The position numbers were made by a program, and so were the translations under genes. A model generated the notes under the pieces. That model saw only the letters and a program-made list of their open reading frames with translations, was not told the origin of the DNA and made no database searches. A stretch of DNA of 63,155 nt from Ruminococcus sp. (GTDB taxonomy: Bacteria; Bacillota; Clostridia; Oscillospirales; Acutalibacteraceae), in contig JAFRBX010000054.1 in the NCBI GenBank assembly GCA_017404665.1, forward strand, positions 1 to 63,155. The letters are read 5' to 3'. Shown piece by piece: positions 2,946-21,752 of the stretch (positions are counted from its first letter, which is position 1; every line of letters begins with the position of its first letter).

Positions 2946-3223
2946 AAAAGAGATAAAAGATAAAAGATAAAAGATAATAGATAAAAGATAATAGATAAAA
3001 GATAGCAGATAACAGTTGTGGGAAACGCTGACACGCGTGTCCGCGTTTTAGATTTGAATAATTGCATAAAGAAACAACGTGCACGACTCTTTGTGAGCTG
3101 TGCACGTTTGTTTTTCTGTACGTTACGGATTATTAATGATCGGGTGCGGGCAGAGCCCGCCCTTCACTGTTCTCTGTTCTCTGTTATCTGTTATCTATAT
3201 ATCTGTTATCTATTCTCTGACTC
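2946..3223. repeat. Family B heptamer-array hairpin repeat
   Basis: The left arm is tandem GATAAAA/GATAATA/GATAACA heptamers (2951-3015). The right arm is tandem CTGTTAT/CTATTAT units on the same strand (about 3165-3215), so the arms are complementary. The core holds a hairpin, CGTGCACGACTC/GAGCTGTGCACG, followed by TTTGTTTTT, and the motif GGGTGCGGGCAGAGCCCGCCC. It separates the convergent 881-2941 gene and glmM and could serve both as terminator. Confidence 0.75.
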
Positions 3224-5248: not shown

Positions 5249-6040
5249 TTACAGTCTCTCTTTCTTTTCGATATCGAGGAAGTATTTGTACGCGCCGACG
5301 GTCAGCTCGTCGCACGCCGCCTCATCACAGGCGATGATCGCGCCGTTGTGCATCTGCAGCGCGGAGCAGGTCCACTTGTGGCTGACAGAGCCCTCTACGG
5401 TCTCGGCAAGCGCCTTCGCCTTGTTGTGACCGTTGATGAGGATGAGAACCTCTTTGGAATCGGTAACGGTGCCGACGCCGACGGAGAGCGCCTGAGCGGG
5501 AACCGCCTCGGGATCGTTGCCGAAGAAGCGGGAGTTCACGATACGCGTATCAGTAGTCAGGTTGCGCACGCCGGTGCGGGACGAAAGGCTGGTGAACGGC
5601 TCGTTGAACGCAATGTGACCGTCTACGCCGATGCCGCCCATGAACAGGTCGATGCCGCCGTAAGATGCGATCTTCTCTTCATAACGCGCGCACTCGCCCT
5701 CGGGATCGTCAGTCATGCCGTTGAGGATGTTGATGTTCTCGGGCTTCATGTCGACGAGGTGATCGAAGAAGTTGTCGTGCATGAAGTACCAGTAGCTCTG
5801 GTCATGCTCGTGAGGCAGACCGAGATATTCGTCCATGTTGAAGGTGACGACGTTCGCGAATGAAAGCTCGCCCTTTTGATTCATGGTGTACAGTTCCTTG
5901 TAAACGCCGATGGGCGAGGAGCCGGTCGGCAGACCCAGTACAAAGGGACGATCCTCTTTGTGAGCCTTGATCTTGGCGGCGATGTAGTTCGCAGCCCACT
6001 TGCACATCTTATCGTAATTGTCCTGAATAATAACTCTCAT
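5249..6040 (-). CDS. nagB: Glucosamine-6-phosphate deaminase/isomerase
   Basis: 263 aa, standard length. Family motifs are GLPTGSSP near residue 38, the catalytic FNMDEY (Asp about 69), and GIGVDGHIAFNEP containing the ring-opening His. The enzyme catalyses the reversible reaction GlcN6P + H2O = fructose-6-P + NH3. It usually works catabolically beside nagA, but no nagA or PTS gene is nearby. Here it heads an operon with a GlmU-like acetyltransferase and GlmM, and a glmS-type ribozyme lies in its leader. A biosynthetic, ammonia-using role is therefore likely. ATG 6040 follows GGAGG (6047-6051). An open frame runs further upstream to 6343, but it crosses a repeat and is judged untranslated. 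Confidence 0.94.
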   Translation of the reverse strand: MRVIIQDNYDKMCKWAANYIAAKIKAHKEDRPFVLGLPTGSSPIGVYKELYTMNQKGELSFANVVTFNMDEYLGLPHEHDQSYWYFMHDNFFDHLVDMKPENINILNGMTDDPEGECARYEEKIASYGGIDLFMGGIGVDGHIAFNEPFTSLSSRTGVRNLTTDTRIVNSRFFGNDPEAVPAQALSVGVGTVTDSKEVLILINGHNKAKALAETVEGSVSHKWTCSALQMHNGAIIACDEAACDELTVGAYKYFLDIEKKERL

Positions 6041-6063
6041 AATATTCCTCCGTATTGTGATAT

Positions 6064-6172
6064 GGTGGGACGACCATCGGTCGTCCGCTTGACAGAAGCG
6101 TTTCGCCTCTATCTGCGGCTTTCGATCACAGAAACGCCCGTCATGCCGCGGATGAGCAATGCTCATCCCTAC
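6064..6172. repeat. Family D repeat (GGGACGACCATCGGTCGTCC ... GAGCAATGCTC) in the nagB leader
   Basis: One end holds the palindrome GGGACGACCATCGGTCGTCC and the other GGATGAGCAATGCTCATCC followed by CTAC. The same two ends bound the element at 48366-48472. It lies between the ribozyme and the nagB ribosome site, so it is transcribed in the nagB 5' leader. Confidence 0.7.
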
Positions 6173-6309
6173 GACAACGATCTTTTTCTGAAATAAAGCA
6201 CATTCTGTCAAAACAAGCACCGGGAGAACCTCTGTTACAGTGTCGATTCTGCTTTTTCTTTTCTCCCTTACGACACGCTCAACGCAAACCAATAATTTGT
6301 ATATGTAAA

Positions 6310-6463
6310 ATACCTTCCGAGTATTACCCGGCTTGCTTCTCAAGCCTCATTGGTCCAATCACCTTTGCGTGATTTTGAAATAGCTTGCGTATTTGCCGTG
6401 GCGGCATCCGCCGAATCTTTCGATAACCGCCAAACCTCGTCAACCGTTTCCGGTCCCGGCGCT
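6310..6463 (-). ncRNA. glmS ribozyme: glmS-type self-cleaving ribozyme/riboswitch
   Basis: Read on the minus strand, the conserved glmS ribozyme core is present in order: AGCGCC (6463-6458) with the cleavage site between A6463 and G6462; a P1 stem ACCG-GAAA-CGGU; GTTGACGAGG; GGCGGTTATCGA; TTCGGCGGATGCCGCC, which pairs with GGCGG to form the P2 region; then a P4-like hairpin ATCACGCAAAGGTGAT and a GCTTGAGAAGCAAGC stem. In the known class, GlcN6P is the catalytic cofactor and cleavage destabilises the downstream mRNA. The next gene is nagB, not glmS. Core identity is very strong; the 3' boundary is approximate. Confidence 0.92.
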
Positions 6464-6542
6464 AACAGACCTCATAAACCTCCTTTGAAAGGACTGTTTT
6501 ATCCGATCGGGGATTTTTTTGCAAAACACCCTAATCGTTAAA

Positions 6543-6571
6543 ATTTTACCACATAGAAGCGTAGAAGTCAA
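6543..6571 (-). promoter_or_regulatory. Promoter of the ribozyme-nagB operon
   Basis: On the minus strand, -35 TTGACT (6571-6566) and -10 TAAAAT (6548-6543) are separated by 17 bp. Transcription would begin near 6536, about 70 nt before the ribozyme cleavage site, so the ribozyme is inside the transcript. Confidence 0.75.
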
Positions 6572-6595
6572 TAACGGATATCGGACAAAACAGAA

Positions 6596-6796
6596 GAAGA
6601 GATAAACAGAGAATAGATAACAGATAACAGTTATGGGAAACGCTGACGCGTTTTGGACTGAAATAACGACTGCAAAACACAACGCTCATGACTCTGTGTA
6701 AAAAAGTCATGAGCGTTTCCTGAAGTTGATATCAATCGGGTGCGGGCAGAGCCCGCCCTTCACTGTTATCTATTATCTGTTATCTATTCACTGAAC
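6596..6796. repeat. Family B heptamer-array hairpin repeat
   Basis: The left arm is GATAAACAGAGAATAGATAACAGATAACAG and the right arm is CTGTTATCTATTATCTGTTATCTATTC in part. The core has GGAAACGCTGACGCGTTTTGGA, the hairpin AACGCTCATGACT/AGTCATGAGCGTTT and GGGTGCGGGCAGAGCCCGCCC. It fills the space between the galE stop and the promoter of the nagB operon. Confidence 0.75.
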
Positions 6797-7804
6797 TCAG
6801 TATCCCTGCGGATTGTTCTTCTGCCAGTTCCAGCTGTCGCGGCACATTTCCTCGATACCGTACTTTGCCGTCCAGTGAAGCTCCTCTCTCGCCTTAGCGG
6901 GGTCGGCGTAGCATTCGGCTATATCGCCCGCGCGGCGCGGCTTGATATCGTAGGGGATGTCGATGTCGTTGACCTTCATAAAAGCGTTCACGATGTCCAG
7001 CACGCTGTAGCCGGTGCCGGTGCCGAGGTTGAAGATCTCCGTTCCCTTATGCTGAGCGGCGTACTCGATCGCCTTGACGTGACCCTGCGCCAGATCCACG
7101 ACGTGGATATAATCGCGCACGCCGGTGCCGTCATGGGTGGGATAATCGTTGCCGAACACGCCAAGACGCGGGAGCTTGCCCACTGCGACCTGCGTGATAT
7201 AGGGCATGAGGTTATTGGGGATGCCGTTGGGGTTCTCGCCGATCAGACCGCTTCGATGCGCGCCGATCGGGTTGAAATAGCGCAGCAGCACCACACTCAG
7301 CTGAGGATCGGCAGCTGACGCGTCGGTCAGGATGCGTTCGCTCATGTACTTCGTCCAGCCATAGGGGTTAGTGCAAAAGGTCGGCATACCCTCTTTCAGC
7401 GGCACCTGTTCGGGGATGCCGTAGACGGTCGCAGACGAGCTGAACACGATGATGTTCACACCGCGCTCCTTCATCACCTCAAGCAGAGTCAGCGTAGTAT
7501 CGAGATTGTTGCGGTAATAGCGCACGGGGATCGCACAGCTCTCACCCACCGCCTTGAGTCCCGCGAAATGCACCACCGCGTCAAAGTTTTCTTTTTGGAA
7601 CATCGCGTCCACGGCGGGCTTGTCCGCCACATCCAGCTCATACAGCACGGGGCGGGTACCGGTGATGGTCTCGATGCGGTCGAGCACCTTGGGCGAGCTG
7701 TTGTCAAAGTTGTCGGCGATGACAACCTCATAACCCGCTTCGATCATTTCCACAGCGGTATGGCTGCCGATGTATCCGGCGCCGCCTGTCAGTAATACTT
7801 TCAT
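6797..7804 (-). CDS. galE: UDP-glucose 4-epimerase
   Basis: 335 aa, typical for GalE. It has the N-terminal Rossmann motif TGGAGYIGS (residues 6-14), FSSSATVYG carrying the catalytic Ser/Thr region, YGWTKY with the catalytic Tyr-x-x-x-Lys, and RYFNPIGAH. It interconverts UDP-glucose and UDP-galactose, and sometimes the N-acetyl forms, using bound NAD+. It lies downstream of the PglF/CapD-type dehydratase on the same strand, with a family B repeat in the roughly 190-bp gap. In this setting it probably supplies UDP-Gal or UDP-GalNAc for surface glycans rather than serving galactose breakdown; no galK or galT is seen. Confidence 0.93.
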   Translation of the reverse strand: MKVLLTGGAGYIGSHTAVEMIEAGYEVVIADNFDNSSPKVLDRIETITGTRPVLYELDVADKPAVDAMFQKENFDAVVHFAGLKAVGESCAIPVRYYRNNLDTTLTLLEVMKERGVNIIVFSSSATVYGIPEQVPLKEGMPTFCTNPYGWTKYMSERILTDASAADPQLSVVLLRYFNPIGAHRSGLIGENPNGIPNNLMPYITQVAVGKLPRLGVFGNDYPTHDGTGVRDYIHVVDLAQGHVKAIEYAAQHKGTEIFNLGTGTGYSVLDIVNAFMKVNDIDIPYDIKPRRAGDIAECYADPAKAREELHWTAKYGIEEMCRDSWNWQKNNPQGY

Positions 7805-7815
7805 GTTAACCTCCT

Positions 7816-7990
7816 TTGTTTAGATAACAGAGAATAGTGAATAGATAATAGTGAATGGAAAAACCTTGCGGATTTTTGGATTGATAAAAATGAGAATGGA
7901 GCGTTTGATCAATGCTATCAATGGGGTGCGGGCAGCGCCCGCCCTTCACTGTTATCTATTATCTATTATCTATTCTCTAATATTTATGTA
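7816..7990. repeat. Family B heptamer-array hairpin repeat
   Basis: The left arm is degenerate (GATAACAGAGAATAGTGAATAGATAATAG), the core holds GGGGTGCGGGCAGCGCCCGCCC, and the right arm is CTGTTATCTATTATCTATTATC plus more units reaching the dehydratase stop. It sits between the dehydratase stop and the galE start. Confidence 0.7.
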
Positions 7991-10151: not shown

Positions 10152-10433
10152 ATGAAAGGGATCTTAGAAGAACGAGCCGTGCGCTTAGGCGAATACATCA
10201 TCGAGCATCAGAGTACCGTGCGCGATACAGCGGCGGTATTCGGCGTCAGCAAAAGCACCGTACATAAGGATATCACGACGCTGCTGCCGAAGCTGAACGC
10301 GGGGCTGTATAAAGAGGTGCGCGCCGTGCTGGACATCAACAAGGAGGAGCGCCATCTGCGCGGCGGTGAAGCGACAAAGCATAAGTATGAGATACTCAAG
10401 GAGCTCAAAGAAAGATCGGGAAACAGAGTATAG
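10152..10433 (+). CDS. spoIIID: Mother-cell sporulation regulator SpoIIID
   Basis: A 93-aa DNA-binding protein. SpoIIID acts in the mother cell after sigma-E, repressing and activating genes for engulfment and cortex/coat formation. The sequence shows the SpoIIID signature: RAVRLGEYIIEHQSTVRDTA, the helix-turn-helix FGVSKSTVHKDI (about residues 31-42), and a basic C-terminal helix ending HKYEILKELKER. The ATG at 10152 follows GGAGGTATTCC (10141-10151); an earlier ATG in the same frame lies upstream of the sigma-E promoter and is not needed. It stands alone, with divergent sugar genes upstream and a family B repeat downstream. Confidence 0.95.
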   Translation: MKGILEERAVRLGEYIIEHQSTVRDTAAVFGVSKSTVHKDITTLLPKLNAGLYKEVRAVLDINKEERHLRGGEATKHKYEILKELKERSGNRV

Positions 10434-10592
10434 AGAACAGATAATAGATAATAGATAACAGATAACAGTGAAGGGAAACGCTGGCGCGTTTTGGATTTAG
10501 ATATAAACAATTGACCAAGCGCAGCGAGATACATTCACTGTTATCTGATATCTGTTAACTGTCTATTATCCTCTATTATCTTCTCTGTTATC
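10434..10592. repeat. Family B heptamer-array hairpin repeat
   Basis: The left arm is GATAATAGATAATAGATAAC plus more units, then the core GGGAAACGCTGGCGCGTTTTGGATT, then a right arm of CACTGTTATCTGATATCTGTTAACTG followed by TATTATC units. It lies between spoIIID and the aminotransferase promoter. Confidence 0.7.
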
Positions 10593-16758: not shown

Positions 16759-17010
16759 CAAATAATAGATAATAGATAACAGTGAAGGGAGGGCTTCGCC
16801 CTCACCCGATTTGTAATAGTATTTTGGAAAAGCTTCAAATAAAACAGCAACGTGCACAGCTCATAAAGAGTTGCGCACGTTGTTTTTTTATGCAGTTATA
16901 CAAATTCAAAAGCCGTCAGGCTTTCCCATAACTGTTATCTATTATCTGTTATCTATTATCTGTTATCTGTTATCTGTTATCTTTTATCTATTCTCTACTA
17001 TCTGTATATC
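16756..17010. repeat. Family B heptamer-array hairpin repeat, longest right arm
   Basis: The left arm (GATAACAAATAATAGATAATAG) overlaps the htrA stop. The core has the hairpin CAACGTGCACAGCTC/GAGTTGCGCACGTTG followed by TTTTTTT, and the right arm holds about ten CTGTTAT/CTATTAT units (16930-16990). It lies between convergent htrA and sirtuin genes, and the core hairpin resembles a bidirectional terminator. Confidence 0.78.
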
Positions 17011-21457: not shown

Positions 21458-21483
21458 AGATTCCTCCGTATATGAAAATCAAT

Positions 21484-21752
21484 TAATAGATAACAGATAA
21501 TAGATAACAGATAACAGTGAAGGAAAAGCCTTCGGCTTTTGGATTCCTATTAGATAGGAGCTGCAATGTTTCATCCTCTCTTTTATCACTCGGGGTCCCC
21601 GACATGCCCTGCGCGGCGGGGAAAGGAGGAGCTGCAGCGCGAGGTCAAGGCAAACCAACCGGATATGCCTACCCAGTACAGCGGGCGACGACGAGGGTGC
21701 GGGCGTCCCGCCCTCGACTGTTATCTGTTCTCTTTTCTCCGTTCTCTGAAAA
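21484..21752. repeat. Family B heptamer-array repeat with unusual core
   Basis: The left arm is AATAGATAACAGATAATAG plus more units, then GTGAAGGAAAAGCCTTCGGCTTTTGGATT. An unassigned GC-rich core runs from 21550 to 21700, then GGGTGCGGGCGTCCCGCCCTC and an eroded right arm CTGTTATCTGTTCTC. The core shows no gene or known RNA. It fills the space between spoIVA and the sipL-like gene. Confidence 0.6.

Follow-up and report, generated by a model that had tools for sequence, protein, structure and literature searches.

A glmS-class ribozyme ahead of a nagB-acetyltransferase-glmM operon in Ruminococcus and its recurrence with nagB in other gut bacteria

The locus and its leader ribozyme

The DNA analyzed here (referred to as the window) is a stretch of 63,155 nucleotides from a Ruminococcus sp. 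(assembly GCA_017404665.1, contig JAFRBX010000054.1). Its minus strand carries, in this order, a promoter-like site, a glmS-class ribozyme, nagB, an acetyltransferase gene and glmM (Table 1); galE (7804-6797) has the same orientation and is located further upstream. The nagB product matches TIGR00502 with 376.2 bits (cut-off 236.9) and solved NagB relatives with a best E of 1.7e-98, and no second acetyltransferase gene of this kind is matched in the genome at E<=1e-10. With NagB reversed, the three genes cover the steps from fructose-6-P to UDP-GlcNAc save that of a uridylyltransferase. If NagB does run backwards, they would form a UDP-GlcNAc biosynthesis operon. The controlled unit would be the whole operon rather than nagB alone.

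A preliminary description of this DNA had placed a glmS ribozyme core on the minus strand, within a transcript with a good promoter and with nagB as the next gene. The core and its neighbor are borne out: the core strings, including GTTGACGAGG and TTCGGCGGATGCC, can be read in the sequence, and 5249-6571 spans promoter, ribozyme leader and nagB. The promoter stood in part, since the two hexamers are present and the site, weak alone, is only plausible because shuffles of the scanned 3.9 kb yield 2.9 such sites on average.

Table 1. Features of the nagB locus in the window and, in the last four lines, ribozymes at loci of one family (f19) of the order.
Feature	Position	Strand	Remarks
Promoter-like TTGACT-N17-TAAAAT	6543..6571	-	10/12 consensus; TG before second hexamer
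glmS ribozyme, full extent	6215..6463	-	A-1 at 6463, G1 at 6462, end of P3.1 3' strand at 6215; 3' half relocated using 15 congeners
P1 stem and core GACGAGG	6435..6455	-	6455-6451 with 6446-6442
P2, enclosing TTATCGA and CGGCGGATG	6399..6432	-	6432-6427 with 6404-6399
L3, 120 nt	6275..6394	-	between the P3 strands
P3.1 pseudoknot	6215..6280	-	6280-6275 with 6220-6215
P4 with internal loop and inner hairpin	6222..6267	-	6267-6261 with 6228-6222
nagB, glucosamine-6-phosphate deaminase/isomerase, 263 aa	5249..6040	-	TIGR00502; ATG at 6040
Left-handed beta-helix acetyltransferase, GlmU C-terminal-like, 218 aa	4590..5246	-	below curated cut-offs of the matched NCBIfam models
glmM, phosphoglucosamine mutase, 453 aa	3224..4585	-	TIGR01455, 540 bits (cut-off 447.55)
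f19 ribozyme, L293	6635-6801	-	
f19 ribozyme, L294	5478-5637	-	
f19 ribozyme, L295	5853-6013	-	
f19 ribozyme, L296	5776-5933	-	

The Rfam covariance model RF00234 matches 6474-6346 on the minus strand, about 0.4 kb 5' of nagB, with 43.7 bits against a cut-off of 37 (E 6.8e-7). This is a rather low score and the sole match in the genome at E<=0.001; a chance match is ruled out by the E value and by recurrence in the genus. The match is shorter than the whole ribozyme because a 120-nt expansion of L3 hides P3.1 and P4: the last third of the alignment is forced, and the real 3' strand of P3, P4 and P3.1 lie beyond the expansion, at 6280-6215. The core strings AGCGCC (6463-6458), GACGAGG (6441-6435), TTATCGA (6426-6420) and CGGCGGATG (6413-6405) are invariant in all 16 genus sequences, the one exception being the last base of CGGCGGATG in G018.

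We placed the strands of P1, P2, P3, P3.1 and P4 in these 16 sequences (window included) by the anchor AGC(A/G)GAAT, which lies 96-148 bases from the core start in 13 congeners, 203 in G012 and G017, and 211 in the window; the P4 offset in our script hangs on a spacing rule and was set by hand for G027. Pairing was compared with 1000 shuffles, which take no account of kinship. All 28 helix pairs form in the window. P3.1 pairs in 79 of 96 cells (shuffle maximum 72) with double changes at all six positions, and P4 in 105 of 112 (maximum 100) with double changes at five of seven. The totals for P1 (75 of 80; shuffle mean 68.7, maximum 75) and P2 (96 of 96; mean 91.2, maximum 96) are equalled by the best shuffles, with double changes at two positions in P1 and at two of six in P2, and the four pairs of P3 (6398-6395 and 6274-6271) show no double changes among the 16 sequences. 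By its score, conserved core and covarying P3.1 and P4, the leader element is confirmed as a glmS-class ribozyme. L3 reaches 112 nt in G012 and G017, and its length ranges over 6-57 nt in the remaining 13 sequences of the genus. The window's expansion folds somewhat better than shuffles (z -2.09), a consensus fold of two expanded sequences contains no double changes, and we assign no function to it.

The leader between ribozyme and nagB (6041-6215, about 175 nt) contains palindromic stretches and has no counterpart in the congener loci examined; a 108-bp piece of it, perhaps another mobile repeat, shows 74% identity to a stretch close to this genome's RNase J gene (L251). A dispersed intergenic repeat occupies 6575-6800, with partial copies near 2976-3216, 7899-7978, 10424-10503, 16762-16996 and 21479-21527; near 6780-6740 it reads GATAACAGATAATAGATAACAG and GGGCGGGCTCTGCCC.

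Recurrence of the ribozyme ahead of nagB

Across a genus sample of 40 genomes, the window's own included, we found 16 ribozymes at E <= 5.5e-7, all directly 5' of nagB; 15 exceed the cut-off, and that of G017 is slightly below it (36.6 bits). Eleven further RF00234 matches (E 0.01-0.9) adjoin neither nagB nor glmS and look like chance. A close NagB is encoded in 17 of the 40 genomes, and the ribozyme precedes it in all 16 with readable upstream sequence; in the 17th (G004) the upstream region is cut by a contig end and no ribozyme is visible. Among the 23 genomes without close NagB, no RF00234 match rises above 21 bits. The genes nagB, acetyltransferase and glmM are contiguous in all 17, with nagB incomplete in some.

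An order-wide sample (295 genomes, strict filters) yielded 64 ribozymes, 63 of them over the cut-off: 54 head glmS, two head nagB and eight head neither, meaning that no glmS or nagB lies in the 1.5-2.5 kb fetched behind them. The nagB-heading pair consists of the window and G310, from another family of the order, where a ribozyme under the cut-off (33.6 bits) stands ahead of an 88% identical nagB. In three other genera of the window's family (G167, G180 and G300), the ribozyme heads glmS.

A NagB scan of named genomes, of which we considered the best 80 of 590 loci (L097-L176), led mostly to rumen or gut records titled Ruminococcus, Oscillospiraceae, Lachnospiraceae, Erysipelotrichaceae, Clostridiales or Clostridia. 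From these 80 loci, 50 genomes were picked by their NagB, and the proportions given for them are conditional on that choice. The set omits five near-identical congeners (L098-L100, L102 and L103), each of which has the ribozyme core, as well as 25 loci whose NagB is below 77% identity, of which 23 contain no glmS ribozyme by Rfam and two (L175 and L176) were covered by a core-motif scan only. It contains 32 ribozymes in 31 genomes (31 over the Rfam cut-off), 19 of the 50 genomes being without one. One of the 31 genomes, Ruminococcaceae bacterium P7 (L101), perhaps an isolate, combines ribozyme and nagB with two full GlmS matches and shows no NagA at E<=1e-20. All but one of the 32 head a nagB-containing cluster; the remaining one heads glmS in G370, which has one ribozyme ahead of nagB and a second ahead of glmS. 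The first gene of the 31 clusters is nagB in 24, the acetyltransferase gene in six and glmM in one (glmM-nagB-glmS), and the order behind the ribozyme varies (acetyltransferase-nagB-glmM, acetyltransferase-glmM-nagB, glmM-nagB-glmS, or nagB without flanking partners). One cluster (L150/L292) has both nagB and glmS behind a single ribozyme, and glmS also lies beside the cassette in L127 and L138, the latter without ribozyme.

Eighteen close NagB relatives in the same tree group as the ribozyme-linked NagBs are without ribozyme, and their genomes contain no glmS ribozyme by Rfam (strict filters). A search for a degenerate ribozyme up to 700 bases ahead of these 18 clusters (465 for L136) gave best core matches with 6-11 mismatches, versus 1-2 in three positive controls, and shuffles did equally well or better in 17 of the 18, the exception being L126 (6 mismatches, against 7 for the lowest of 20 shuffles). 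By eye, a TACTCCCNNGGGAGTA-like palindrome, imperfect in L136, occurs upstream of ribozyme-free nagB-glmM-acetyltransferase clusters in L129, L141 and L136, and is perhaps an operator in place of the ribozyme.

GlmS, NagA and the direction of the NagB reaction

The preliminary description had further proposed that the cell treats NagB as its GlcN6P-making enzyme and restrains it by the product. The first half does not hold as worded: glmS is present in the same genome, and NagB is at most a second route. This glmS is split between contigs C6, at the end of which residues 1-334 are encoded, and C17, which starts near residue 170. The two overlap by 503 bp at 97.4% identity, a sign of possible strain variation in the assembly; the idea that glmS was lost and replaced by nagB is thereby rejected for this genome. 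No ribozyme precedes it, in the genome scan at E<=0.001 or in the contig piece with the glmS start, so that a glmS with its own ribozyme beside a catabolically controlled nagB is not what this genome contains. Neighbors of glmS (L090/L091, C17 and C6) are gdhA (over cut-off, opposite strand), an amt-PII fusion, purF, a diaminopimelate aminotransferase gene, two glutamine-synthetase-like genes that score below the curated cut-off, a third that matches weakly, and weakly matched response-regulator-like genes.

The other half, NagB as a GlcN6P maker under product feedback, is favored by comparative evidence, namely the operon with glmM, the distribution of NagA, recurrence outside the genus, and G370. 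In 36 genus genomes, of which 19 are at least 90% complete, NagA never exceeds the cut-off, the best match in the window's genome (G000) having an E of 4.6e-4 over 41 profile positions; in the outgroup, nagA is over the cut-off in all 11 genomes with NagB over the cut-off. GlmS is present in 30 of the 36. A link between its loss and NagB in the genus was considered and rejected (NagB in five of six genomes without GlmS and in 13 of 30 with it, p 0.18). Two genomes, G016 (99% complete) and G025 (83%), have neither GlmS nor NagA over the cut-off and encode a different NagB (37% identity) directly 3' of glmM. In G033 (100% complete) glmS is fragmented and contains a frame change and a stretch of N; a sequencing error is possible, and hence it is not used as proof.

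We propose, with a probability of roughly 70%, that a GlcN6P-activated ribozyme switches off the nagB-acetyltransferase-glmM operon and that NagB most likely works in the aminating direction, beside GlmS. NagB would then make GlcN6P from fructose-6-P and NH4+, with GlmM and the acetyltransferase providing the pull. As GlcN6P rises, the mRNA would cut itself between 6463 and 6462, which by homology we take to be the cleavage point, and degradation of the 5'-OH remainder would lower all three enzymes. In B. subtilis this remainder is degraded by RNase J, the basis of our analogy for mRNA decay, and RNase J is encoded in the window's genome. Because glmS sits among nitrogen genes and is without ribozyme, we infer two routes. 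When nitrogen is low, GlmS, whose gene has glutamine-synthetase-like, ammonium-transporter and regulator-like neighbors, would supply GlcN6P from glutamine; in the ammonia-rich rumen, NagB would do so cheaply from ammonia. NagB is thus probably an ammonia-dependent source of GlcN6P under product feedback, beside GlmS and not instead of it.

In the enzyme itself, SRTGVRN takes the place of the SRTRIKT of the five solved relatives compared. R158, K160 and T161 of the latter motif presumably make up the GlcNAc6P activator site of E. coli-type NagB, and this allosteric triad is not kept. The change was rejected as a mark of the ribozyme set, since ribozyme-free relatives share it. Reported Km values for NH4+ are 31.4 mM in E. 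coli NagB and 3.7 mM in bovine GNPDA1, and the equilibrium constant of the reaction is given as 0.2 M (PMC11593775). At that constant, 10 mM ammonium would leave GlcN6P at only about 5% of fructose-6-P; therefore a pull by GlmM is needed, and glmM in the operon fits. Akkermansia NagB reportedly has a Km(NH4+) of 41 mM and made no GlcN6P at physiological conditions (PMC5902328).

The synthesis direction is thus favored by the operon partners, the absence of NagA over the cut-off, the control logic, nagB and glmS behind one ribozyme, and G016 and G025. Against it stand the coexistence of GlmS in 30 of 36 genomes, the lack of a significant link between GlmS loss and NagB among them, the weak ammonium binding of bacterial NagBs, the 18 ribozyme-free close relatives within the same tree group, and nagA in six of the seven ribozyme-nagB genomes without a GlmS match (genomes of unstated completeness).

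The clusters led by the acetyltransferase gene or glmM (seven of 31), and the acetyltransferase being the only one of its kind in the window's genome, would also suit a ribozyme that mainly serves these two genes, with nagB a passenger or an overflow valve deaminating excess GlcN6P. We consider this unlikely: a deaminase that drains an excess should not be switched off by the very substrate it removes, nagB leads 24 of the 31 clusters, four loci (L115, L118, L121 and L135) show neither partner gene in the fetched flanks behind ribozyme and nagB, and close NagB and ribozyme co-occur in the genus. Somewhat less probable still is an ordinary catabolic NagB whose mRNA is cut when amino sugars arrive, sparing incoming GlcN6P for wall synthesis. 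Characterized bacterial NagBs are described as favoring deamination (PMC5902328), and nagA occurs at E<=1e-20 in 16 of the 31 ribozyme-nagB genomes of the 50-genome set (two of the 16 under the curated cut-off), where NagB may be bidirectional or catabolic; however, no nagA is over the cut-off in the 36 genus genomes, glmM shares the operon, and nagA was found in only three of the best 80 of 590 NagB loci (one NagA query, flanks up to 6 kb), none of the three with ribozyme. A decayed ribozyme that has lost cleavage would account for the low score and the grown L3, but is very improbable in view of core strings kept throughout the genus save that one base in G018, double changes that preserve P3.1 and P4, and a window in which every pair forms.

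Known systems, cassette history and ribozymes at other sites

The glmS ribozyme has been described as feedback control of GlmS. The ribozymes of B. subtilis and Thermoanaerobacter tengcongensis (RF00234; PMC11602151) share with the window's the P1-P2 core with double pseudoknot, the peripheral P3/P3.1 and P4, the position in a 5' leader and the expected ligand GlcN6P; they head glmS, whereas the window's heads nagB-acetyltransferase-glmM and has an L3 of 120 nt. GlmNagB of Giardia, also a NagB-type enzyme, is viewed as anabolic; the candidate effectors tried had no effect on it, and, in contrast to the window, the organism is a eukaryote and the part of the paper drawn on here mentions no ribozyme (PMC4281351). 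Akkermansia muciniphila, a gut bacterium without GlmS, likewise has NagB as sole candidate GlcN6P maker and no activation by GlcNAc6P, but its NagB reportedly yields no GlcN6P under physiological conditions, and the organism depends on GlcNAc or GalNAc (PMC5902328).

NagA and NagB of E. coli are catabolic. Those of B. subtilis are catabolic as well (PMC6171935). Both NagBs share the family of the window's enzyme (TIGR00502), and the present genus differs in having no nagA over the cut-off and in the operon partners glmM and acetyltransferase.

Titles and the openings of abstracts, and passages of some of the papers naming both, did not report nagB as the gene behind a glmS ribozyme. Although this class of RNA is known, its target here and the cassette are undescribed as far as the literature searched shows. 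The abstract of McCown 2011 is said to place all but two known glmS ribozymes in glmS mRNAs, and a published exception may therefore exist.

That the ribozyme heads nagB operons in dozens of genomes leads to the prediction that a "catabolic" deaminase would serve as a wall-sugar synthase in ammonia-rich guts, and it suggests that rumen bacteria of the Ruminococcus kind may also build wall sugar from ammonia. This bears on the old question of whether NagB is ever anabolic in bacteria, for which one tested case, Akkermansia, was negative. It also cautions against annotating nagB as amino-sugar degradation, or calling gut bacteria without GlmS GlcNAc auxotrophs, before operon and leader have been read.

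A quick NagB tree gathers all 37 ribozyme-linked rows into a single group of 56 (support 85), whose other members are 18 rows without ribozyme and one unknown; the pattern requires 11 changes, and 42 of the 77 inner forks are weak. The acetyltransferase has one match each in 38 of the 40 genus genomes: in the 17 with close NagB its gene directly adjoins nagB and glmM and identity is 86-100%, and in the 21 others the copy has diverged (56-66% identity); at the 13 of these 21 loci examined, neither glmM nor nagB nor glmS was detected within 1.5 kb. At the loci of other genera, identity is mostly 80-90% for NagB, acetyltransferase and GlmM, apart from copies near 60% at a few loci without ribozyme, and GlmS in three of these other-genus loci is 49-51% identical to that of congener G010. 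From such gene identities we read the cassette as probably transferred, with replacement of a native acetyltransferase. A wider picture, on which we are evenly divided, is that of a horizontally moving cassette, made up of ribozyme, nagB, GlmU-like acetyltransferase and glmM in varying order, through which many rumen bacteria would reach UDP-GlcNAc from ammonia and without glutamine, beside or instead of GlmS, the riboswitch class having followed its metabolite from the synthase to a reversed deaminase.

Strong glmS ribozymes (78-87 bits) that head no glmS were also seen in the f19 family (Table 1), in G053, G124, G110 and G094, with G150 resembling G110. They lie behind malQ (G053 and G124), behind a CAAX-protease-like gene (G094), or, in G110, are flanked on the same strand by an AAA/SMC-like gene and a Na/Pi transporter gene, and could be orphan, 3'-end or retargeted elements. 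In G135 a ribozyme (L297, 6548-6699, minus strand) is directly 3' of glmM in the order acetyltransferase-glmM-ribozyme, and in G326 one (L298, 5601-5753, plus strand) follows an acetyltransferase gene; the next genes are convergent in both, and the element looks like a 3'-UTR glmS ribozyme.
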